A stretch of 64,000 bases of DNA from Burkholderia seminalis DSM 23518 (GTDB lineage Bacteria; Pseudomonadota; Gammaproteobacteria; Burkholderiales; Burkholderiaceae): NCBI RefSeq assembly GCF_902832885.1, contig NZ_CADFDK010000001.1, forward strand, positions 620,001-684,000. Reading direction: 5' to 3'. How positions within the stretch are numbered: the stretch's first letter is position 1; the number at the start of each line of letters is the position of its first letter. Under the pieces are notes generated by a model. It did not search any database and had not been told where the DNA came from. It saw only the letters and a program-made list of their open reading frames with translations. The position numbers and the translations under genes are program-made. This document shows, one piece after another, positions 5,023 to 34,707 of the stretch.

Positions 5023-5641
5023 CTACATTCGCGACGGGCAGGAAATCTACCGCCAGTCGTTCGCGACGATCCGCGCCGAGGCCGACCTGTCGCGCGTTCC
5101 GCCCGACCTCGAGAAACTCGCGGTGCGCGTGATCCATGCGTGCGGGATGGTCGACGTCGTCTACGACCTGCGCTTTTCGGCTGGCGCCGGCACGGCCGGC
5201 CGCACCGCGCTCGCGGCCGGCGCGCCGATCCTGTGCGACGCGCGGATGGTCGCCGAAGGCATCACGCGCGCGCGGCTGCCGGCCGACAACCGCGTGATCT
5301 GCACGCTCGGCGAGCCGGAGGTGCCCGATCTCGCGCGCCATCTCGGCAACACGCGCTCGGCGGCGGCGCTCGAACTGTGGCGGCCGCATCTCGCGGGCAG
5401 CGTCGTCGTGATCGGCAATGCGCCGACCGCGCTGTTCCACCTGCTCGACATGATCGACGCCGGCGCGCCACGCCCCGCGCTGATCCTCGGTTTTCCGGTC
5501 GGCTTCATCGGCGCGGCCGAATCCAAGGCGATGCTCGATGCCGACAGCCGCGGCGTGCCGTACGTCGCGCTGCTCGGCCGGCGCGGCGGCAGCGCGATGG
5601 CCGCCGCCGCGGTCAACGCCCTGGCCACGGAGGTCGAATGA
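5015..5641 (+). CDS. cobH: Precorrin-8X methylmutase CobH
   Basis: Moves the methyl group from C-11 to C-12, converting precorrin-8X to hydrogenobyrinate. The 208-residue protein begins [19 protein letters not shown] and has [13 protein letters not shown] around residues 37-49, containing the active-site histidine of the CobH/CbiC family. A later [13 protein letters not shown] segment is also characteristic. Length is normal for the family. The start overlaps cobG by 8 bases and the stop overlaps cobI as ATGA, so the genes are probably translationally coupled. Confidence 0.96.
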
Positions 5642-17299: not shown

Positions 17300-17980
17300 T
17301 CAGCGCGCGAGATCCGTGCGAAGCGCGTCGGCCGTCAGCCACTGCGCGCCCCAGGCGGCGGCGAGCCGCGCGCCCCGCCCGATCCGCACGGCCGCATCGT
17401 CGAAGTCGACGAACACGACGTGGTCGGCCGACGCGGGTTTCGGCGGCGTTTCGCGCGTGCGCCCGTCGGACAGGACCCACAGCCAGCGCTGCTTGCCGGG
17501 CTCGCTCCGTGCGTCTCGCGCGAGCAGCTGCGCGGCCGCGGCGATGCCGTCCGCGAGCGGCGTGCCGCCGCCGCCGTCGACCGGTTCGAGCCAGCGTGCG
17601 TTCCACCAGCGCGGGACGGCCGGGCCGAAACGCCGGGCGGCGCCTTGACCGCCGAAGCAGATCAGCGCGGTTTCGACCCGATCGCGCGCGGCCCGATCGA
17701 AATACGCGACGATCAGGCCCTTCGCGAGCGCGAGCCGGTCGTTCGACAGCATCGACGCCGAACAGTCGAGCACGAAGCAATGCAGTGCATGCGGCGTCCC
17801 TGCGCGTTTCCGGAACCGCACATGTTCGTGAAGCAGCGGGCCGCCGCGTTTCGCGGCGAGCGTCGCCGGCCACGCAACGGTCGTGCCCGCGCGTGCCGTG
17901 CCCGGTACGTGCGCGGCTGCGCCTGACTGCCATCGAGGACCGCGAACGGCGTTCGCGGCGGCGCCGGCTCGATGGCTCAG
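17300..17980 (-). CDS. VWA-domain (ChlD/BchD-like) chelatase accessory protein
   Basis: Von Willebrand A domain resembling the C-terminal part of magnesium-chelatase subunit ChlD. HCFVLDCSASMLSNDRLALAK has the Asp-x-Ser-x-Ser metal-ion site, and GGGGTPLADGIAAA and LWVLSDGRT follow in the usual order. With the ChlI-like protein it would form the AAA+ motor that lets CobN insert cobalt in genomes without CobS/CobT. The start is unusual: no ATG, GTG or TTG lies near the beginning of homology, and the coding frame touches the chlI stop as CTGA, so CTG at 17980 may initiate (226 residues). GTG 17821 would give a 173-residue protein beginning inside the domain. Confidence 0.75.
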   Translation of the reverse strand: MSHRAGAAANAVRGPRWQSGAAAHVPGTARAGTTVAWPATLAAKRGGPLLHEHVRFRKRAGTPHALHCFVLDCSASMLSNDRLALAKGLIVAYFDRAARDRVETALICFGGQGAARRFGPAVPRWWNARWLEPVDGGGGTPLADGIAAAAQLLARDARSEPGKQRWLWVLSDGRTRETPPKPASADHVVFVDFDDAAVRIGRGARLAAAWGAQWLTADALRTDLAR

Positions 17981-19053
17981 CGTTTTTTTAGCGGCAGCGG
18001 CACCACGCCTTTCACTTCGCGCAGGCCGGCCGGCTCGGGCGGCAGGTAACCCCAGTCGCTCTGCGCGGCGGATGCCTCGCCTCGCGTCTCGTCCTGCCGG
18101 TTGTCGTCCCGCTGGCGCGCATCCGGCGGCGAACGTTCGTCTCGATCGCCGCCGTGTTGCGACGACCCGTGCGACGGCGGCGTATCCGCATGGCGCCGGT
18201 GCCGCAGCACCGCTTGCGCCACACGCTCGACATGCGACACCGTCACCGCGTCGGCCTGCTCCAGCGCAGCCAGCGCGCGCGCGGCGCGCAGCATCACGAG
18301 GTCGGCGCGCAACCCGTCGACGGCCGCGTCGATGCACAGCGCGCTGACGCGCGCATGGACTGCATCGTCGAAATCGAGCGTCGCCAGCCGCGCGCGCGCC
18401 GCATGGATCCGGTCGCCGAGTTCACGCTGGACGGGCGCATGACGTGCACGAAATGCGTCCGGGTCGAGATCGAACGCGAGTCGCGCCTTCACGATCCGTT
18501 CGCGCTGCGCGGCGTCGAAACAGTTCTCCAGTTCGACCATCAACCCGAAGCGGTCGAGCAGTTGCGGGCGCAGTTCCCCCTCCTCCGGATTCATCGTGCC
18601 GACCAGCACGAAGCGCGCGTCGTGCGCGTGCGACACGCCGTCGCGCTCCACGATGTTCACGCCGCTCGCGGCGACGTCCAGCAGCGTATCGACGAGCCCG
18701 TCGGCGAGCAGGTTCACTTCGTCGACATACAGCACGCCGAGGTGCGCGCGTGCGAGCAATCCAGGCCGGAAGCGCACGCCGTTACCGGCCAGCGCATGCG
18801 CGAGATCGAGCGTGCCCGTCACCTGCTCGTCGCTCGCCGACAGCGGCAGCGTGACGAACTGCCCTTCCGGCAGCAGTTCCGCAAGGCCGCGTGCGGCGGT
18901 CGATTTCGCGGTGCCGCGCGGGCCGCTCACGAGCACGCCGCCGAGCGACGGGTCGATCGCGGCGAGCAGCAGCGCCTGCTGCAGCGCATCTTGCGCGACG
19001 AGCGCCGCAAACGGAAAGACCGCGCGGGCGCGGTGCGTCGTCGGATCGGTCAT
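17977..19053 (-). CDS. ChlI-like AAA+ ATPase, internal start of the cobN frame
   Basis: 358 residues from ATG 19053: Walker A is GPRGTAKSTAARG (about residues 37-49), Walker B is LGVLYVDEVNLL, and GTMNPEEGELRPQLLDRFGL is the sensor and arginine-finger region of magnesium-chelatase ChlI. It is predicted to power cobalt insertion by CobN together with the VWA protein. A G-rich AGGAAGGGGGGG stretch lies just before the ATG and can serve as its own ribosome site, so this protein may be made separately even though the reading frame is continuous with cobN. The C-terminal 60 residues are rich in Asp, Arg and Gln and look disordered. Confidence 0.8.
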   Translation of the reverse strand: MTDPTTHRARAVFPFAALVAQDALQQALLLAAIDPSLGGVLVSGPRGTAKSTAARGLAELLPEGQFVTLPLSASDEQVTGTLDLAHALAGNGVRFRPGLLARAHLGVLYVDEVNLLADGLVDTLLDVAASGVNIVERDGVSHAHDARFVLVGTMNPEEGELRPQLLDRFGLMVELENCFDAAQRERIVKARLAFDLDPDAFRARHAPVQRELGDRIHAARARLATLDFDDAVHARVSALCIDAAVDGLRADLVMLRAARALAALEQADAVTVSHVERVAQAVLRHRRHADTPPSHGSSQHGGDRDERSPPDARQRDDNRQDETRGEASAAQSDWGYLPPEPAGLREVKGVVPLPLKKR

Positions 19054-22000
19054 CGCCGCCCCCCCTTCCTGAAGTTGTTCGCTCGCGAGCCAGACCGCTT
19101 CGATCCGCTCGCGATAGTCGCCCGGCTGCTGCCACAGGCCGCGCTGCATCGCCTCGACGAAGCGTTCGCAGATGCCGTGCAGCGCCTTCGGGTTGTGCCG
19201 TTCGAGAAATGCGCGGGTGGCGTCGTCGAACAGGTACGCGTCGGCGACGAGCGCGTACTGGTGGTCGGACAGCACGCGCGCGGTCGCGTCATAACCGTAC
19301 AGGTAGTCGACGGTCGCGGCCATCTCGGCCGCGCCCTTGTAGCCGTGACGCTTCACGCCGTCGAGCCATTTCGGGTTGACGACGCGCGAGCGGATCACGC
19401 GCGCGATTTCCTCGCGCAGCGTGCGCATCGTCGGCGCGACCGGGTTCGCATGGTCGCCGTGGTAGATGCTCGGCTGCTGCCCGGACAAGTGCCGCACGGC
19501 CGCCGTCATCCCGCCCTGGAACTGGTAGTAGTCGTTCGAATCGAGGATGTCGTGCTCGCGGCTGTCCTGGTTCTGCACGACGACGTCGATCGTCGCGAGC
19601 CGCTCGCCGAAGACGTCGGCCGCCGCGTCGCCGGCACTGTTCTGCGCATACGCGTGGCCGCCCCACTGGCGATACGCATCGGCGAGCTCGGCGTCGGTCT
19701 GCCAGCGGCGCTGGTCGATCAGGTCCTGCAGGCCCGCGCCGTAGCTGCCCGGCCGTGCGCCGAACACGCGCCAGCCGGCGCGGCGCCGCGCTTCGTCGGG
19801 CGTCACCCCTTGCGCGATCCATTTCGCGCGCTCGCGCTCGACGCGCGCGCGGATCGGGTTCAGTTCCTCGGGCTCGTCGAGCGCGGCGACGGCCTGCACG
19901 GCCGCGTCGAACAGGTGCATCAGGTTCGGGAACGCGTCGCGGAAGAAGCCGGACACGCGCAGCGTCACGTCGATGCGCGGCCGGTCGAAGATCTCGATCG
20001 GCAGGATCTCGAAGTCGGTCACGCGATGGCTGCCGTGCGCCCATTTCGGCCGGACGCCGAGCAGCGCGAATGCCTGCGCGATGTCGTCGCCGCCCGTGCG
20101 CATCGTCGCCGTGCCCCATACCGACAGGCCGATCGCGCGCGGATAGTCGCCGTGATCCTGCAGATGGCGCTCGATCAGTTGCTGCGCGGATTTCAGGCCG
20201 AGCGACCACGCGGCCTGCGTCGGCACCGCGCGCGTGTCGACCGAGTAGAAGTTGCGGCCGGTGGGCAGCACGTCGGGGCGGCCGCGCGACGGCGAACCGC
20301 TCGGCCCCGGCGGCACGAAACGGCCGTCGAGCCCGCGCAGCAGCTGGCGCATTTCCTCGCCGCCGCACGCGTCGAGCGCGGGCAGCAGCGTCGCGCGAAC
20401 GCGCCCGAGCACCGCGAGCGTGTGGGGCCATTCGCCGGGCGGCGTCGCGTCGGCACCCGTGTTTCCGCCGTCGGCCGCGCACAGCCCGTCCAGCCATTGT
20501 TGCGCGAGCCATTCGAGGCGCTCGCGCGTATCGCCCGCGTGGCGCCACGGCGATGCGTCGAGCGCCTGCAGGATCGCCGGGCGCGGGCCGATCCACGGCG
20601 CGGCCCAGTCCGCCGACAGCGGATCGAAGTCGTCGCCGAGCGCGAGATCGCGCGCCAGCGCGCCGATCAGCCCCGCCCGCGCGCCCTTGCCGTCGCCGAC
20701 CGGAAAACGCGCGAGCGCGAGCAGCGTGTCGCGGCGCTGGCGAGCGGCCGGCGATGCGCCGAACACGTGCAGCCCGTCGCGAATCTGCGCTTCCTTCAGT
20801 TCGCACAGCCACGCGTCGACGCGCGTGAGCAGCGCATCCTCGTCGCCCGCATCGCGCGGCGGCGACACGCTCAGCTCGTCGTGCAGGCGATGCTCGGCGA
20901 TCGTCGCGAGGATCGTCTTGCGCAGCAGCTTCGCGCGCCGCGCGTCGACCATCAGCGCTTCGTAGTATTCGTCGACCTGCCGCTCGAGATCCTGCAGCGG
21001 CCCGTAGTTTTCCGCGCGCGTGAGCGGCGGCATCAAGTGATCGATAATCACGGCCTGCGCGCGGCGCTTCGCCTGGCTGCCCTCGCCCGGATCGTTGACG
21101 ATGAACGGATAGAGATGCGGCAACGGCCCGAGCGTCAGGTCGGGCCAGCACGCGTCGGACAACGCGACGCTCTTGCCCGGCAGCCATTCGAGGTTGCCGT
21201 GCTTGCCGAGGTGGATGACCGCGTCGATGCGATACGCATCGCGCAGCCAGAAATAGAACGCGAGATACGCGTGCGGCGGCACGAGATCCGCATCGTGATA
21301 GCTCGCGTAGTCGTTCTCGCCGCGCGAACGCGACGGCTGGATGCCGACGAACACGTTGCCGGCGCGCCAGCCGGCGATCGTGAAACGTCCATGGCGCAGC
21401 GTCGGGTCGGCTTCGGGCGGCCCCCAGCGCTGGTTCAGCGCGTCACGCACGGCGGCCGGCAGCCGCGCGAAGCGTGCGATGTAGTCGGCCAGCGGGAAGC
21501 TCTGGAACGCGGGTCGCAATGCATGCACGGCCGCGTCGTTGGTCACGCCTTCGGTGAGGCGCGCGATCAGCGCGTCTCCGTCGGGCGGCAGGCCGGCCAG
21601 CGTGTAGCCCGCGTCGCGCAGCGCCGCGAGCACGCGCAGCGCGGATGCCGGCGTGTCGAGCCCCACGCCGTTGCCGATCCGCCCTTCGCTTTGCGGGTAG
21701 TTCGCGAGAATCAGCGCAATGCGCTTGTCGGCGTTGTCGAGCGTGCGCAGCCGGCACCAGCCGCGCGCGAGCGCCGCGACGAACGCGATCCGCTCGGCGT
21801 CCGGCTGATAGCGCACGACGTCGACCTCGGTATGCGGGCAGCGATACGCGAGCCCCTTGAAGCTCACCGCACGCGTGACGATGCGCCCGTCGACTTCGGG
21901 CAGCGCGATATGCATCGCGATGTCGCGCGCATGCAGGCCCTGGTTGTCGGCCACCCACGCGTCGCGGTTGCCGCCGGACAGGATCACCTGCAGCACCGGT

Positions 22001-22860
22001 GCGTCGCCGGCGAGCACGTCGTGTTCGGGGCTGTCGATCGCGCCGGCCGCGAACGCGGTCGTGTTCAATACGAGCGCGACGCCGTGCGTGTCGCAAAGTT
22101 GCGTGATGACTTCGCGGCTCACCGCATCCTTCAGCGACGTCACCGCGATCGGCAACGGATTCAGCCCCTCGGCGATCAGTGCGTCGGCCAGCGCGTCGAA
22201 CACGGCCGTGTTCGCGGCCTGCCAGTGCGCGCGATAGAACAGGATCGCGACGACGGGCGCGCCGGGCGTCCAGCGCGGCCGCCAGTCGTCGACGCTCGCG
22301 CGGTCGCGCGCCGGGTGATACAGCGCGGCGGCCGGCAGCGGGCGCGGCGGCTCGGGTTCGGCGCCGAAACCGAGCGTATGGAACGCGATGCTGCGCAGCA
22401 GCGCGTCGGCATTGTGCACGCCGCCCTCGCGCAGATAGCGCCACCACAGCCGGCACAGCGCCGGCGTGACGGTGCTCTTCGCGACGAGGTTCGGATCTTC
22501 CTGCAGGTCGCCCGAGAACATCGCGAGCTGCTGCCCGCGCTTCGACGCGAGCGACACGGCCTGCTCGATCCCGTACGGCCAGTACGCTTCGCCGCCGAGA
22601 TGATCGATCACGACCGTCTTCGCATGACGCAGCACGTCGTCGACGTAGAAATCGACGGACGCCGGCTGCCGCAGGAACGTGACGTTCGCGAGCCGCACGC
22701 TCGGGAACCCGGCCGGCAACCGCGGCACGACGCTCGCGAGCAGCGACAGCGTCGTGTCGGCCGAACTCAGGATCACGATGTCGGCCGGCTGCTGGTCGAT
22801 CCGGACGACGCCCTGCGTATCGTCGACGAAGCCGCCCGGCGTGGTGCGCAGCAGATGCAT
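17977..22860 (-). CDS. cobN: Cobaltochelatase CobN fused in frame to a ChlI-like AAA+ domain
   Basis: CobN is the large subunit that inserts cobalt into hydrogenobyrinate a,c-diamide. Residues 1 to about 1265 are CobN: the start MHLLRTTPGGFVDDTQG, IHLGKHGNLEWLPGKS near residue 555, and a long magnesium-chelatase-H-like body ending ERIEAVWLASEQLQEGG. The frame then continues without a stop through a run of seven G into MTDPTTHRARAVFPF, the start of a ChlI-type ATPase, giving 1627 residues in all. One G fewer would end CobN at a TGA overlapping the ATPase ATG (ATGA), which is how most genes here are joined. Either the fusion is real, the tract slips, or a base is misread. It lies 6 bases after cobW under the leftward riboswitch. 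Confidence 0.9.
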   Translation of the reverse strand: MHLLRTTPGGFVDDTQGVVRIDQQPADIVILSSADTTLSLLASVVPRLPAGFPSVRLANVTFLRQPASVDFYVDDVLRHAKTVVIDHLGGEAYWPYGIEQAVSLASKRGQQLAMFSGDLQEDPNLVAKSTVTPALCRLWWRYLREGGVHNADALLRSIAFHTLGFGAEPEPPRPLPAAALYHPARDRASVDDWRPRWTPGAPVVAILFYRAHWQAANTAVFDALADALIAEGLNPLPIAVTSLKDAVSREVITQLCDTHGVALVLNTTAFAAGAIDSPEHDVLAGDAPVLQVILSGGNRDAWVADNQGLHARDIAMHIALPEVDGRIVTRAVSFKGLAYRCPHTEVDVVRYQPDAERIAFVAALARGWCRLRTLDNADKRIALILANYPQSEGRIGNGVGLDTPASALRVLAALRDAGYTLAGLPPDGDALIARLTEGVTNDAAVHALRPAFQSFPLADYIARFARLPAAVRDALNQRWGPPEADPTLRHGRFTIAGWRAGNVFVGIQPSRSRGENDYASYHDADLVPPHAYLAFYFWLRDAYRIDAVIHLGKHGNLEWLPGKSVALSDACWPDLTLGPLPHLYPFIVNDPGEGSQAKRRAQAVIIDHLMPPLTRAENYGPLQDLERQVDEYYEALMVDARRAKLLRKTILATIAEHRLHDELSVSPPRDAGDEDALLTRVDAWLCELKEAQIRDGLHVFGASPAARQRRDTLLALARFPVGDGKGARAGLIGALARDLALGDDFDPLSADWAAPWIGPRPAILQALDASPWRHAGDTRERLEWLAQQWLDGLCAADGGNTGADATPPGEWPHTLAVLGRVRATLLPALDACGGEEMRQLLRGLDGRFVPPGPSGSPSRGRPDVLPTGRNFYSVDTRAVPTQAAWSLGLKSAQQLIERHLQDHGDYPRAIGLSVWGTATMRTGGDDIAQAFALLGVRPKWAHGSHRVTDFEILPIEIFDRPRIDVTLRVSGFFRDAFPNLMHLFDAAVQAVAALDEPEELNPIRARVERERAKWIAQGVTPDEARRRAGWRVFGARPGSYGAGLQDLIDQRRWQTDAELADAYRQWGGHAYAQNSAGDAAADVFGERLATIDVVVQNQDSREHDILDSNDYYQFQGGMTAAVRHLSGQQPSIYHGDHANPVAPTMRTLREEIARVIRSRVVNPKWLDGVKRHGYKGAAEMAATVDYLYGYDATARVLSDHQYALVADAYLFDDATRAFLERHNPKALHGICERFVEAMQRGLWQQPGDYRERIEAVWLASEQLQEGGAAMTDPTTHRARAVFPFAALVAQDALQQALLLAAIDPSLGGVLVSGPRGTAKSTAARGLAELLPEGQFVTLPLSASDEQVTGTLDLAHALAGNGVRFRPGLLARAHLGVLYVDEVNLLADGLVDTLLDVAASGVNIVERDGVSHAHDARFVLVGTMNPEEGELRPQLLDRFGLMVELENCFDAAQRERIVKARLAFDLDPDAFRARHAPVQRELGDRIHAARARLATLDFDDAVHARVSALCIDAAVDGLRADLVMLRAARALAALEQADAVTVSHVERVAQAVLRHRRHADTPPSHGSSQHGGDRDERSPPDARQRDDNRQDETRGEASAAQSDWGYLPPEPAGLREVKGVVPLPLKKR

Positions 22861-22866
22861 CGTGCG

Positions 22867-23955
22867 TTACGCCTGTTGCGGCTCGGCCGCGCACGCGGCG
22901 TCGAACGCGCGTTGCAGCGCGGCCGCGTCGAGATCCTCGCCGATCAGCACGAAGCGGCTCGCGCGCGTTTCGCCGTCCCGCCAGCGTCGGTCGAAATAGC
23001 TGTCGAAGCGGCGGCCGACGCCCTGGATCACGAGCCGCATCGGCGCGCCGGGCAGCGCGGCGAACCCTTTCGCGCGGTAGATCGTGTGCGCTTCGACCAC
23101 GCGCTGCAGCGCGGCGATCGTCGCCTCGCGCGTGCCGGCGTCGCCGGACACGACCACCGAGTCGAAATCGTCGTGATGGTGATCGTGATCGCCGTCGTCG
23201 GCCGAGCCGTGATGATCGTGACGCAGGTGGATCGTGTCTTCCGATGCCGATTCGAGGCCGAGCAGCATCGCGAGATCGAGCTCGCCGCGCGTCGCGCGCA
23301 CGATCTTCACCTGCGGCGGGATCTCGTCGCGGATCGCGGTTTCGATCCGGGCGAATTCCGCGTCGCCGACCAGATCGGCCTTGTTCACGATCACCAGATC
23401 GGCCGACGACAGCTGATCGGCGAACAGTTCGTGCAGCGGCGATTCGTGGTCGAGGTTCGGATCGGCGCGGCGCTGCGCGTCGACGGCCTGCGGGTTTTCC
23501 GCGAACTGGCCGCTCGCGGCGGCCGGCCCGTCGACCACGGTCACGACCGCGTCGACCGTGAAGCTGTTGCGGATCGTCGGCCAGTTGAACGCCTGCACGA
23601 GCGGCTTCGGCAGCGCGAGGCCCGATGTCTCGATCAGCACGTGGTCGATGTCCGCGCGCCGTTCGACGAGCGCCTCCATCACCGGGTAGAACTCTTCCTG
23701 CACGGTGCAGCACAGGCAGCCGTTCGCGAGTTCGTACAGCTGGCCCGACGCTTCGCCCTGCGCGCCGTCGCCGTCCTCGCAGCCGATGCCGCAGCCCTTG
23801 AGGATCTCGCCGTCGATGCCGAGCTCGCCGAATTCGTTGACGATCACCGCGATGCGGCGGCCCGCGGCGTGCTGCAGGATGTGGCGCATCAGCGTCGTCT
23901 TGCCGCTGCCGAGAAAGCCCGTGACGATCGTGACGGGAAGCTTGCGTAGGGTCAT
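22867..23955 (-). CDS. cobW: CobW-type GTP-binding metallochaperone
   Basis: G3E-family GTPase thought to deliver cobalt for cobalamin synthesis. The 362-residue protein has the P-loop GFLGSGKTT at about residues 12-20, the metal-binding CLCC motif in ELANGCLCCTVQEEF, the NKAD GTP-specificity motif (VIVNKADLVG), and a His/Asp-rich loop (HDHHGSADDGDHDHHHDD) that probably binds metal. The start MTLRKLPVTIVTGFLGSGKT places the P-loop at its usual distance; an upstream in-frame ATG would add an unrelated leader. First long gene behind the leftward riboswitch, 6 bases from cobN. Confidence 0.95.
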   Translation of the reverse strand: MTLRKLPVTIVTGFLGSGKTTLMRHILQHAAGRRIAVIVNEFGELGIDGEILKGCGIGCEDGDGAQGEASGQLYELANGCLCCTVQEEFYPVMEALVERRADIDHVLIETSGLALPKPLVQAFNWPTIRNSFTVDAVVTVVDGPAAASGQFAENPQAVDAQRRADPNLDHESPLHELFADQLSSADLVIVNKADLVGDAEFARIETAIRDEIPPQVKIVRATRGELDLAMLLGLESASEDTIHLRHDHHGSADDGDHDHHHDDFDSVVVSGDAGTREATIAALQRVVEAHTIYRAKGFAALPGAPMRLVIQGVGRRFDSYFDRRWRDGETRASRFVLIGEDLDAAALQRAFDAACAAEPQQA

Positions 23956-23980
23956 GGTAGGTCCGGTGTCGAAGAGGGAA

Positions 23981-24097
23981 TCAGGACGGGATCGTCGCAT
24001 TGGCGGCGGCGAGGCCATTCATCGGGCGACGCGCAGGCAGACCGCCGCGCGATCCGCGCGAACAACCGCGCGACGGGCGGAACAACGAATCGGACAT
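23981..24097 (-). CDS. Possible 38-residue leader ORF before cobW
   Basis: Short frame MSDSLFRPSRGCSRGSRGG ending NGLAAANATIPS with a strong AAGGA ribosome site 7 bases before the ATG. It begins about 200 bases after the riboswitch and ends 25 bases before cobW, so it is cotranscribed with it. The peptide is Ser/Arg/Gly-rich and I recognise no family. Its well-placed ribosome site is the main reason to list it. Confidence 0.4.
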   Translation of the reverse strand: MSDSLFRPSRGCSRGSRGGLPARRPMNGLAAANATIPS

Positions 24098-24301
24098 GGT
24101 GCTTCCTTGCGAACGGTCGACATCGTGAATGCCAACACGGCTGCCGTCGGCCCTGCCCGGGCCGCCTGCCGTTCGCCGTCCAGGCCCGGCGCGTTCGCGC
24201 GGGGGGCAGATCGGCGGAGGAAGCGGAACACCCCGGGCGTCGGGCCTGCTGCGGCCGTGGACGATGCGCCGCCTCCCCGCGGCGCTGAACCCCAACGTTT
24301 A

Positions 24302-24535
24302 GGCCGGTATCCGGGCTGGCGAACACGCCGCTTCGCCTTCCCGGATGCGCGCGGCATCCAGTGGCGGTCGTCCGCCTGCACGCGGCAGGCGGCGAAGCGG
24401 CGCTGCATCGCGCTCGCGCGCGACACGTTCGCTTACCGTTGCGGGGGCAGCACAGGTTGGCTCGACTGCGGTGCAGGCAGGCTCCCTGTTTCCCGTTTAA
24501 CTGCGCGCGCCGGAGCGGCACGCGCGAGCACCAAA
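24302..24535 (-). ncRNA. Cobalamin riboswitch upstream of cobW-cobN
   Basis: On the leftward strand the order is GGTGCTCGCG, AGTTAAACGGGAAACAGGG, CCTGTGCTGCCCCCGCAACGG, ATCCGGGAAGGCGAAGCGG and the B12 box GCCAGCCCGGATACCGGCC (end at 24302). These are the conserved cobalamin aptamer elements. About 200 bases separate it from the 38-residue ORF. It should shut off cobW-cobN-chlI-VWA when cobalamin is abundant. It mirrors the rightward riboswitch at 24682 and shares AGTTAAACGGGAAACAGG with it. Confidence 0.93.
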
Positions 24536-24578
24536 ACGCGTGCGAGTGTAGGCGGCGGGGCCGGGAGCGTCAAGGCGG

Positions 24579-24620: not shown

Positions 24621-24681
24621 TCGGAGGCCGGCCGTGGCCGGTTCGCGCGGGCGAACCGCTGTGCTATCGTATGCGCCGCGT

Positions 24682-24884
24682 TCGGTGCTCGCATGCGCAT
24701 TCCGCGCATGCAGTTAAACGGGAAACAGGAGGCGGACGACCGCCCGGCCTGTGCTGTCCCCGCAACGGTACGCCGCCCGCGCGCCGCGCTCCCCGCGCAC
24801 GCGCCCAGGCCGCCCGCGATGCCACTGCCCTTCACCGGGCGGGAAGGCTGCGGCCTGGCAAGCGGCCAGCCCGGATACCGGCCG
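24682..24884 (+). ncRNA. Cobalamin riboswitch upstream of cobA-cobE-cobO-cobB
   Basis: Rightward strand: CGGTGCTCGCATG, CAGTTAAACGGGAAACAGGAG, CCTGTGCTGTCCCCGCAACGG, CACCGGGCGGGAAGGCTGCGG and the B12 box GCCAGCCCGGATACCGGCC ending at 24883. All core cobalamin riboswitch elements are present. About 186 bases follow before the cobA ATG; no terminator was obvious in them, so control could be at translation or by Rho. Confidence 0.93.
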
Positions 24885-25070
24885 ACGCAAGGGGCGAGCC
24901 CGATGCTCGCCGAACGCCCGATCCGCGGGGGACGGATGGGGTGCGCATTCCGCCCGCGTCCGCGCGGGCTTCGTCCGATCCGTCATGCACTGCCTGCCCG
25001 CCGGCCGCCGAGGTGCCGCCCGCCTGTTCCCTTCCACTGTTTCGACACGGTGCGTGCCGTGCCGCGTGTG

Positions 25071-30497: not shown

Positions 30498-31514
30498 TCA
30501 CGGCAAGCGGAAAGTGTCAAAGAACGTATCGCGCTCGATCACCGTGAGCGCCGCGCGCTTGTGCGGGAAATCGAATTCCTTCAGCGTGTAGAACCCGAGC
30601 CGGTGCATGTACGCGATGTGCCGCACGTGATCGACGCGCGGCTCGCCGACGAGCCGCTGCGTGCGCGGTTCGTCGACGAACATGTAGTGCAGCACCCCGC
30701 TCCACCACGCATGCAGCTTGCCGGCGCTCTGGAAGCGCGAGTCGCCGATCAGCAGGTGCAAGCCGCGGTCGTAGTCGTGCGCGTCGTAGAACGGCGCGAG
30801 GCGGTCCTCCTTCGCCCAGTAGAACTCGAAATAGCCGAACGGCGTATCGTCGAAATAACCGATCATCGGGTGCATGTGCGGATCGGCGAGCCGCTCGGCA
30901 AGGTAGGCCGCGTGCTCGTCGCGCGTGCCGCGCTGGTCCCAGAAATGCGCGACCCGATCGAGGTTCATCCAGCCGCTGAACAGGTCCGCATGCGCGTCGA
31001 CGTCGACGGTGCGCAGGCTGAAGGTCATCCCGACCTGCGGCATGTAGCGCGCATAGATCTCGCCGGCCGGCGACGGCGGGCGCACCGGATGCCGGTGGCC
31101 GTTCGTGATCGCGTAGCGCAGCGGCATCCCGCCCGACGCGGGCGCCTTCAGCCACGGCCGCGGGTTCTGCCAGAACGTCGTGCGCGACACGGTGAGCCGC
31201 AGCGTGTCGCCCACGACCTGCGCGCCGTCGATCACGCCCTCGCGCACCGCGCGCGCGACGTACGACTCGACGGCTGCCGCCTCCGCGCCGGCGAGCGGCA
31301 CCGAGATCGTCGCGATGTCGTACCGCGTGTCGGTGTTGAACAGCGCGACGAACGCCGCGAGCAGCTCGTCCGGCGCACCGTCGGGCCGCCAGGCGTCGAG
31401 CGTGTGCTCGACGACCGCCACGGCCTGCCCCTGCGCGGCGCCGTCGAGTGCGGCAGCCACCTCGCCTGCGACGGCGTCGGCGGCACCGGCCGGTTTCGTC
31501 AGCGTGTCTTCCAT
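30498..31514 (-). CDS. orbL: Ornibactin N-acyltransferase-type protein OrbL
   Basis: 338-residue GNAT-fold protein of the IucB/AlcB siderophore acyltransferase group. HMHPMIGYFDDTPFGYFEFYW and RGLHLLIGDSRFQSAGKLH, followed by a late YMFVDEPRTQRLVGEPRVDH, are the family's acyl-CoA-binding core. In ornibactin synthesis such an enzyme puts the 3-hydroxy fatty acyl group on N5-hydroxyornithine. It is homologous to OrbK at the other end of the tailoring genes. The start overlaps the pvdF stop by one base (TGATG). Last gene of the orbI-to-orbL transcription unit. Confidence 0.9.
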   Translation of the reverse strand: MEDTLTKPAGAADAVAGEVAAALDGAAQGQAVAVVEHTLDAWRPDGAPDELLAAFVALFNTDTRYDIATISVPLAGAEAAAVESYVARAVREGVIDGAQVVGDTLRLTVSRTTFWQNPRPWLKAPASGGMPLRYAITNGHRHPVRPPSPAGEIYARYMPQVGMTFSLRTVDVDAHADLFSGWMNLDRVAHFWDQRGTRDEHAAYLAERLADPHMHPMIGYFDDTPFGYFEFYWAKEDRLAPFYDAHDYDRGLHLLIGDSRFQSAGKLHAWWSGVLHYMFVDEPRTQRLVGEPRVDHVRHIAYMHRLGFYTLKEFDFPHKRAALTVIERDTFFDTFRLP

Positions 31515-32353
31515 CACAGTACTCCCGCGTCGTGGCGGTCGGCGAGGACATGCAGCCCCCGCTCGAGCGCCGGGAACAGGCTGCGCTGGAAGTTGTTCCA
31601 GCGCAGTTCGAGAATCGTGTCGTCCGGCGCGATCGGCGTGTCGAGCACGTCGCAGATCACCTCGCCGGAATCGATGCCGTTGTCGACGTAGTGAAACGAC
31701 GCGCCCGTCATCGTCACGGGCTCGACGGACGACGTCGTGCCGCTCGCCCAGTCGACCCGTTCGCCGCGCGCGCCGTGCAGCGCATCGAGCGTCGCCCACG
31801 CGCCGCGCCGCTGGTACGGCGAATCGTCGGCCGTGATGCCGGGGTGGATGTTCGCGATGCGCCGGTGAAAGCGCGCGCCCGGCCGCACGAGCTCATCGAG
31901 AATCACGAGCAGCCCGTCGAGCACGACGATGTCGGCATCGAGTTCGAGCAGGCGCTCGAGCAGGCGGCGCTCGAACGCCTGTTTGCCGGCCACGCGCTCG
32001 CGCGCGTCGCGCGGCAGCCGCCGGTACGTCGACGGAATCGCGCTGAACAGCGCGTCGACCGGCGTGCCCTGCACCGTCAACCCCTCCGGCAGGATCCACG
32101 GGCGGCCCGGCGTGCGCGCGAAGCCGTAGTCGGCCACTTTCGCGCGGTCGGCCGGCGAGCCTTCGTCGTCGTCGACGATCACGCCCTTGAGGGTGTAGCG
32201 CTCGCCGAGCGGCGAATCGTTCAGGCGTTCGACGAGGAATTCGAGCGGCGCCTTCATGTAGCGCGTGCCGCCCCGATAAGCGACCGGCTGGCCGGCGCGA
32301 TCGGCCGCGCCGTTGCGCAGCGACTGGATGTAGACGAGATTTTTTTTCGGCAT
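31514..32353 (-). CDS. pvdF: N5-hydroxyornithine formyltransferase PvdF
   Basis: Transfers a formyl group from N10-formyltetrahydrofolate to N5-hydroxyornithine, giving the formylated residue at the ornibactin C-terminal side. The 279-residue protein begins MPKKNLVYIQSLRNGAADR. The formyltransferase active-site pattern is IANIHPGITADDSPYQRRG (Asn and His) with a later HYVDNGIDSGEVI carrying the Asp. ATG 32353 matches the usual N-terminus; the upstream open frame overlaps orbA and is not used. An 86-base gap separates it from orbA. Confidence 0.92.
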   Translation of the reverse strand: MPKKNLVYIQSLRNGAADRAGQPVAYRGGTRYMKAPLEFLVERLNDSPLGERYTLKGVIVDDDEGSPADRAKVADYGFARTPGRPWILPEGLTVQGTPVDALFSAIPSTYRRLPRDARERVAGKQAFERRLLERLLELDADIVVLDGLLVILDELVRPGARFHRRIANIHPGITADDSPYQRRGAWATLDALHGARGERVDWASGTTSSVEPVTMTGASFHYVDNGIDSGEVICDVLDTPIAPDDTILELRWNNFQRSLFPALERGLHVLADRHDAGVL

Positions 32354-32439
32354 GGATGCGTCGAGGAAAAGCGGACGAAGGCGCCGCGGCCCGCCCGCGC
32401 CGGCCGCGAAGGCCGGCCGGCGGACCGCGGCGCGCAACA

Positions 32440-34707
32440 TCACCAGTTGTATTTCGCGGTCGCGATCACCGTGCGGTCGGTTCCGAACACGCAGACGTTG
32501 TACGACTGGCAACCGCTGATGTAATGGCGGTTGAACAGGTTCGTCCCGTTCACGGCGAAGCGCCAGTTACGCACGTCGTAATGCAGCCCCGCGTCGAACA
32601 GCGTGACGCTCGACACCGTCAGCGAGTTGTCCGCCGCACCGGCCGACGCGCTCTGGTAGCGGATGCCGCCGCCGAGGCCGAAGCCCGCGAGCGGCCCCGT
32701 GTGCCACGTCCAGTCGGTCCACAGCGACGCCATCTGGCGCGGCCGCGGAATGTCGACCGGCCAGTTGTTCAGCGACACGTCGTTGGCCTGCACGTTCTTC
32801 ACGTCCTGGTAGACGTACGACGCGATCACCGACAGATTCGACGTGACCTTGCCGGTCGCGCTCAGCTCGATCCCGCGCGAACGCACTTCGCCCGTCTGTA
32901 CGGACTTCGTGCCGGTCGGGTCCTGGCCCGGCAACGCCGACGTGAGCACGTTGGTCTGGTTGATCTGGTAGATCGCCGCGTTCAGCATCAGGTTCTTGCC
33001 GGGCGGCTGCCAGCGCAGGCCGGCCTCGATCTGCTTGCCGCGCGTCGGCTGCGGCAGCCCGCCGCCGAGCAGGTTCACGCCGATCAGCGGGTTGAACGAC
33101 GTCGCATAGCTCACGTAAGGCGACAGCCCGTAATCGCCCTGGTACGTGAGGCCGACGCGGCCGGTAAACGCCGTGACGTCCGCCTTCGTCGACGTGCCGC
33201 CCGCGCGGTCGTCCATCCGCATGTTGACCCAGTCCTCGCGGCCGCCGAGCGTCAGCGTCCAGCGGTTCCACTTGATCTGGTCCTGCGCGTACAGGCCGAA
33301 CGTGTTCATCGTCGTGTACGTGTTCGTACGGAACGTGGTGTCCGGATTCGAGAACACCGACAGCGTGACCGGCGTGTAGACCGGGTTGTAGATGTTCAGC
33401 GGCGACGCGGCGGCGAGCCATTCGCTGTCGGTCGCGGTCTGGCGGTTGTACTGGAAGCCGAGCAGCAGCGTGTGCTGGAGCGGGCCCGTTGCAAACCGGC
33501 CTTCCAGGTTGTTGTCGATGTCGAAGCGGCTGTAGTTCATCTGGAACACGCCGGCCCAGCGCGACACGTCGGTCGTGCTGCCGTCGACGAAGCCGTTGCC
33601 GAACACCGAGCCGTTGTCGAGCGACAGGTGCATCAGCCGCGTGTTCTGGCGGAACGTCCACGCCGGCGTCAGGTTTCGTTCGAACTGGTAGCCGACCGAC
33701 CACTGCTTCTTGCGGTAGTAGTTGAAGTTCGGGTCACCTTCGTAGACGTCCTTGTTGATTTGCCCGCTCGGGTTCGGCAGCACCGTGCCCACCGCCGGGA
33801 CGAAGTTCGACGAGATGTCGCCCCAGTCCTGCAGGTACGTCGCGGACAGCGTCAGCGACGTATCCGCGTCCGGGCGCCAGCGGAACGACGGCGCGAGCGC
33901 GACGCGCTGGTCGTTGTTCGGACCGGTCAGCGCGTTGCCGTCGCGCGCGACGCCGACGAACCGGTACGCGTACTTGCCGTCCGGGTCGAGCTTGTCGCCG
34001 ACGTCGATCATGAACTGCTTGCGCGCGTAGTTGCCGATCTGCACCCCGGCCTCGCGCACGCGCTCGCCGTCGGCGAGCTTGGTCTGCACGTCGATGATCG
34101 CGCCCGGGTCGCCCGCGCCGTACAGTACCGAGGTCGGCCCGCGCAGCACGCTGATGCTGTCGATCATGTACGGATCGACACGCCAGCTGGCGAGGTTGAT
34201 CGTGTTCGGCACCTGCAGGCCGTTCACGTAGGCCGTCGGCGTAAAGCCGCGCAGCGCCGCATACCAGTCCGAACGGTTGTCCGAACCGTACGACGAGAAG
34301 CCCGGCACGTAGCGCAGCGCCGCGTTCACGTCGGTCGCGCCGGTCATCTCGATCTGCTGCGCGGTGACGACGTTGATCGTCTGCGGGATCTCGTTGATCG
34401 GCGTGTCGGTCTTGGTACCGGACCGGCTGCGCTTCGCGACGAGCCCGACCGTGCCGTCGCCGGCCGAGGCCGCGTTGACGGTGATCGCCGGCAGCGTGCC
34501 GTTCTGCGCGCTGGTCGACGGACCGGCCGCCGCGCCGTTCTGTGCACTGCTGGCCGACGCCGCGACGCCCGCGTTCACGGCCGGCGCCGTCTGGGCGTAT
34601 GCGTGCCCTGCCGCCGCCGTACCGAACGCCACGCTCGCCGCGGCTGCGATCGCACGCAAACGCGTGCCTGTTGCCCACTCCATCTTTCTCTGCTCCACTT
34701 TTTTCAT
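32440..34707 (-). CDS. orbA: TonB-dependent ferric-ornibactin receptor OrbA
   Basis: Outer-membrane receptor of 755 residues for iron-loaded ornibactin. It has a long signal peptide (MKKVEQRKMEWATGTRLRAI to HAYAQ), then a plug domain with DTPINEIPQTINVVTAQQIE and VLRGPTSVLYGAGDPGAIID, and a 22-strand barrel ending in an aromatic residue (ATAKYNW). A Cys pair near the end (ISGCQSYNVCVFG) resembles the disulfide loop in FhuA/FoxA-type receptors. The start has GGAG close upstream, partly held in a small hairpin. Cotranscribed with pvdA (22-base gap). Confidence 0.94.
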   Translation of the reverse strand: MKKVEQRKMEWATGTRLRAIAAAASVAFGTAAAGHAYAQTAPAVNAGVAASASSAQNGAAAGPSTSAQNGTLPAITVNAASAGDGTVGLVAKRSRSGTKTDTPINEIPQTINVVTAQQIEMTGATDVNAALRYVPGFSSYGSDNRSDWYAALRGFTPTAYVNGLQVPNTINLASWRVDPYMIDSISVLRGPTSVLYGAGDPGAIIDVQTKLADGERVREAGVQIGNYARKQFMIDVGDKLDPDGKYAYRFVGVARDGNALTGPNNDQRVALAPSFRWRPDADTSLTLSATYLQDWGDISSNFVPAVGTVLPNPSGQINKDVYEGDPNFNYYRKKQWSVGYQFERNLTPAWTFRQNTRLMHLSLDNGSVFGNGFVDGSTTDVSRWAGVFQMNYSRFDIDNNLEGRFATGPLQHTLLLGFQYNRQTATDSEWLAAASPLNIYNPVYTPVTLSVFSNPDTTFRTNTYTTMNTFGLYAQDQIKWNRWTLTLGGREDWVNMRMDDRAGGTSTKADVTAFTGRVGLTYQGDYGLSPYVSYATSFNPLIGVNLLGGGLPQPTRGKQIEAGLRWQPPGKNLMLNAAIYQINQTNVLTSALPGQDPTGTKSVQTGEVRSRGIELSATGKVTSNLSVIASYVYQDVKNVQANDVSLNNWPVDIPRPRQMASLWTDWTWHTGPLAGFGLGGGIRYQSASAGAADNSLTVSSVTLFDAGLHYDVRNWRFAVNGTNLFNRHYISGCQSYNVCVFGTDRTVIATAKYNW

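Follow-up and report, generated by a model that had tools for sequence, protein, structure and literature searches.

The window analysed here is a stretch of 64,000 nucleotides from a Burkholderia seminalis draft genome (DSM 23518; 7.97 Mb in 55 contigs). On its minus strand, translation and domain matches placed CobN and a ChlI-type AAA+ ATPase in a single open frame of 1627 amino acids (22860-17977). CobN accounts for residues 1 to ~1261 of this frame (residues 1-1261 matched TIGR02257 CobN at 1583.6 bits, and Pfam CobN-Mg_chel lies at residues 140-1247), followed by Mg_chelatase/AAA_5 and then AAA_lid_2 between residues 1309 and 1561; the stretch at the CobN-ATPase join is EQLQEGGAAMTD. CobN had one match in the whole genome. 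Upstream and in the same direction are a cobW-type GTPase gene, recognized by a domain match (22867..24018, minus strand), and a cobalamin riboswitch that precedes cobW-cobN-chlID (24285..24550, minus strand; RF00174, 52.6 bits).

Other B12 genes nearby encode CbiD, CobK (cut at the window edge), a CbiC-type methylmutase and tetrapyrrole methylases, along with a CbiG-type gene, BtuR/CobO and a CobB/CobQ-type gene. A second cobalamin riboswitch (24665-24900, plus strand) is divergent from the first, ~115 bases away, and precedes a tetrapyrrole methylase gene and BtuR/CobB-type genes. An open frame of 1931 amino acids (18154-23949, plus strand) runs antisense to cobN and to parts of chlI and cobW, and probably results from the high G+C content of third codon positions. 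Elsewhere in the window (30498-34707, minus strand), genes for a TonB-dependent receptor, a formyltransferase-like protein and an acetyltransferase, with GTGA overlaps, look like siderophore genes.

The join between the two halves of the fused frame coincides with a tract of seven G (19065-19059, minus strand), which was confirmed in the given sequence. The minus strand there reads GAA GGG GGG GCG GCG ATG ACC, with the ATG of the chlI-type ATPase at 19053-19051, and the frame opened by that ATG spans 358 amino acids (17977..19053, minus strand), with separate initiation predicted from its retained ribosome-binding region. A cobN stop codon over the chlI start, the arrangement associated with ATGA translational coupling, was not found in this assembly, where the frame runs on. 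A sequence-only reading of the window had already described seven G running CobN into a ChlI-like ATPase of 1627 residues in all, and the same string and frame were recovered here. That reading also cited the same four-base overlap at neighbouring gene pairs; it is ATGA for cbiD/cobK (669-672) and for cobH (CbiC family) with the TP_methylase gene it had named cobI (5638-5641), and GTGA for cbiD and the TP_methylase gene it had named cobL (1757-1760).

The junction was searched for in 64 other genomes of the genus, one per species, with the present species represented by this assembly alone. The cobN/chlI pair was carried by 62 of them, while G016 and G057 gave weak matches only. A simple text-match tally of the junctions caught unrelated strings and was replaced. 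In all 62 genomes with the pair, the cobN TGA overlaps the ATPase ATG to form ATGA. Between GAA and ATG, G runs reached a length of six in two genomes, five in 20, four in seven, three in two and two in 31; thus 60 of the 62 have at most five consecutive G, and seven G occurred at the junction in none of these relatives. The best junction match, G041 (L003), has six G and is otherwise identical to this assembly in its junction letters, as expected from the prior claim that six G would give an ATGA junction. G041 is called closest on the strength of this junction match; it shares 91.7% identity with the present genome (G000) over ~310 kb aligned. Mismatches between the two by codon position were 0, 0 and 8 before the junction and 3, 0 and 10 after it, and their concentration at third positions on both sides is as expected of two conserved coding parts.

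A second collection of 80 named loci, which partly duplicates the 62 genus genomes, contained 65 junctions with ATGA, 10 with GTGA or TTGA, four without a four-base overlap and one without a CobN match. A CobN frame running on into the ATPase did not recur, as it would in a natural CobN-ChlI fusion family, in any of the 62 genus genomes with the pair or the 79 named loci having a CobN match. One genome, G021, was considered as a fusion because its open-frame figure was 1778 for both halves, and was rejected when translation showed a stop between them. At the level of the family, the seven-G junction pattern was present in one of 398 genomes, namely this one. An order-level search (200 genomes, own included, E 1e-15) matched 33 genomes and covered the whole junction query only in this genome; it is a weak test, since nearly all matches cover the ATPase part alone. 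One second match, in G503 (query 15-149, 932-aa frame), reaches into the CobN end. Among the literature matches listed, no CobN-ChlI fusion was described in titles or in the opening parts of abstracts.

Purine runs such as GGAAGGAGGA and GGAAGGGGGA lie directly 5' of the ATPase ATG in the relatives, and we read the run before this ATG, the seven-G tract included, as the putative Shine-Dalgarno region of the ATPase gene. Its pairing, computed against an assumed 16S tail sequence, was -11.3 kcal/mol for this assembly and G041 alike, while two frequent forms among the relatives gave -10.8 and -11.7 kcal/mol. Despite the extra G, translation is predicted still to start at the internal ATPase ATG. 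A G-rich run exactly at the subunit boundary is expected, because the ATPase ribosome-binding region lies there in the relatives, and the position of the tract needs no further explanation. The sequence-only reading noticed that tract and boundary coincide, but recognized neither the putative Shine-Dalgarno role of the run for the following gene nor the conserved frameshift site at the far end of the ATPase frame.

A different signal is located roughly 1 kb downstream of the G tract, where the ATPase frame closes with CTA AAA AAA CGC TGA. It comprises an A AAA AAA slippery heptamer (17983..17989, minus strand), identified from the sequence and the locus survey, and, 6 nt downstream, a hairpin with a 9-bp outer and a 9-bp inner stem (17929..17976, minus strand; -28.9 kcal/mol, folded for the window only). 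The -1 frame beyond encodes a 227-aa von Willebrand A (vWA) part corresponding to the ChlD C-terminus (17300..17983, minus strand; VWA_2, and TIGR02442 positions 459-586). The window thus holds the features of the fs-chlD system, namely a slippery A run before the ATPase stop, a downstream hairpin and a -1-frame vWA part of the chelatase D subunit. A stop, at least six A at the same offset and a vWA match in the -1 frame were found in 107 of 110 loci examined, a set made up of the window, 29 of the 62 genus loci and the 80 named loci (some from the same genomes); the other 33 genus loci, present as short junction pieces only, were left out of this count. The exceptions were L086, whose vWA match follows a stop without change of frame, L136, with no vWA match, and L143, which is without the heptamer, stop and vWA layout. 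Complementary hairpin arms, unscored, were visible by eye in many loci beyond the window. By arithmetic, the -1 frameshift product has 584 residues from the ATPase ATG, or ~1853 if translation begins at cobN in this assembly. On sequence grounds, the operon's conserved recoding site appears to be the downstream A AAA AAA with its hairpin, which would yield the vWA subunit by -1 frameshift. A further paper, by Antonov in 2020, is said to deal with fs-chlD as well. The system itself is already published: Kuznetsov 2022 (PMC9227772) describes programmed -1 frameshifting by which one gene yields the small and medium cobalt chelatase subunits. Antonov 2013 (PMC3711429) places Burkholderia among the genera of the fs-chlD cluster and reports 10% frameshifting in E. 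coli for a seven-A cassette of unstated species, and 40% and 63% for longer cassettes.

The seventh G was also considered against other frame-changing differences between 1.2 Mb of this assembly and 0.8 Mb of G041, using orthologous genes compared both ways (480 of 558 and 482 of 859 candidate frames). Codon-position counts gave 30 and 21 isolated indels in gene interiors, from which those accepted were chosen by eye. Three interior frame-changing indels were accepted, all in this assembly: the one at cobN/chlI, one in a regulator gene (contig C1, ~824.2 kb, outside the window) and one at the 3' end of a histidine-kinase gene (contig C1, ~944.2 kb, outside the window). The regulator is presumably of the ROK type, and this family name, like that of the histidine kinase, is from our own reading of the proteins. 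Just 0 to 2 mismatches follow the indel in the kinase gene, and the coding bias there rests on near-identity. No interior frame-changing indel in true coding sequence was accepted on the G041 side among the ~480 orthologues. Four doubtful indels were set aside by judgement on re-inspection, since they lay before a likely start codon or their frame showed no third-position bias, and two early frameshift candidates (A, C) proved to be upstream non-coding differences. Gene-wise frameshift scans (3 to 7 apparent cases per comparison; 25 and 24) were discarded, as nearly all were N-terminal pieces, that is, mechanical extensions upstream of the likely start. Coding-frame periodicity was likewise abandoned as a test of error rate, since it was too strict and left most runs unclassified; run counts alone were used.

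Slippage of the G tract, giving both fused and separate forms, was one of the options raised by the sequence-only reading. Whether taken as programmed slippage or as phase variation, it is favoured by the length of the tract (seven) and its place at a subunit boundary. We consider it very improbable: no slippery G tract is conserved among the relatives, with seven G in 0 of the 62 genus relatives with the pair and in this genome alone of the family set, the tract position is accounted for by the Shine-Dalgarno region, and the operon has another, conserved recoding site. There is equally little reason to expect that a real seven-G run slips usefully in RNA or on the ribosome, although such slippage would give free CobN, a CobN-ChlI fusion and a CobN-ChlI-ChlD chain of ~1853 residues. 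Were this the case, all three cobalt chelatase subunits would be present in one polypeptide, through the downstream -1 frameshift. The remaining options of that reading, a true fusion and a misread base, survive in altered form as a private indel or a miscall.

A homopolymer miscall, with the usual ATGA junction present in the strain and the seventh G introduced by an error of sequencing or assembly, has roughly an even chance of being correct. The assembly is a draft in 55 contigs, and all three accepted differences among the ~480 genes are +1 changes in its G/C runs. Furthermore, among one-base differences in which the longer run was at least five G/C, this assembly was longer 10 times and G041 once, whereas the A/T runs divided 7 to 12 between this assembly and G041; the 10-to-1 asymmetry leans towards overcalled G/C runs. 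A mutator explanation is not supported, mutS and mutL being open and full length, although missense loss is possible; no mutator is evident. When only pure tracts in identical flanks were counted, however, the asymmetry shrank: among G/C runs of at least five, this assembly was longer twice and never shorter. Moreover, 63 of 64 comparable five-base G/C tracts were the same as in G041, a sign that the assembly is not riddled with errors; for six-base G/C tracts in identical flanks just two were comparable, one of them this junction. Runs of at least seven G/C were few here (17 over 1.2 Mb); G041 had 4 over 0.8 Mb and G018 had 7 over 0.4 Mb, which places this genome above G041 and below G018 per base. 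The alternative, a real private mutation in which a six-G run slipped to seven and left the strain with a stable CobN-ChlI fusion, is plausible at somewhat under even odds. Its natural precursor, a pure six-G run, is present in G041, and the change merely joins two frames of one enzyme while keeping the internal start region; against it, seven G was seen in no relative examined. Antonov 2013 (PMC3711429) can be quoted on both sides, in that passages of it expect singleton frame changes with protein-match support to be sequencing errors, yet consider an indel mutation likelier than an error for a singleton near the 3' end of a gene, compared with elsewhere in the gene. Taken together, miscall and mutation are about even, slightly favouring the miscall, and sequence alone cannot decide between them.

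Our preferred reading, to which we assign a probability of about 0.9, is that an ordinary gene overlap has undergone a private one-G length change and that no programmed slippage element exists at the G tract. The cobN/chlI boundary would be an ordinary overlap of TGA with ATG, probably translationally coupled, whose Shine-Dalgarno run may have drifted to pure G in this lineage. With one G more than in G041, the run would have lost the CobN stop and joined the two frames; the extra G would be either a homopolymer miscall or an insertion acquired recently by this strain alone. If the base is real, we infer that the CobN-ChlI fusion would be made from the cobN start, that ChlI would still be made from the internal ATG, and that ChlID would also be made from that ATG via -1 frameshifting at the downstream A7 site. 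The seven-G junction is thus best regarded as an ordinary one with a length change in a single assembly. If several independent strains of the species share seven G, the fusion would instead be a fixed one.

The case calls for caution, as a homopolymer at a gene boundary in one draft genome can mimic a fusion or a recoding site; here it appears to be the downstream gene's ribosome-binding region lengthened by one base. Should the fusion be real, it would test in nature whether the large chelatase subunit can function while attached to its motor subunit.

Three known systems bear comparison with this junction. In homopolymer phase variation, the length of a homopolymer sets the reading frame, and the cobN/chlI boundary likewise has a homopolymer whose length sets the frame; it differs in that the relatives examined have no frame-toggling length variation, in being confined to one genome and in affecting biosynthetic genes. 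Four-base ATGA overlaps, known from translational coupling in bacterial operons, correspond to the cobN/chlI junction in 62 of 62 genus relatives, whereas the overlap is absent from this assembly, in which the G run is one longer. Lastly, the fs-chlD system differs from the G tract in location, its site being at the end of the ATPase frame, and it is matched in the window by the downstream A AAA AAA heptamer, the stop, the hairpin and the -1-frame vWA part.
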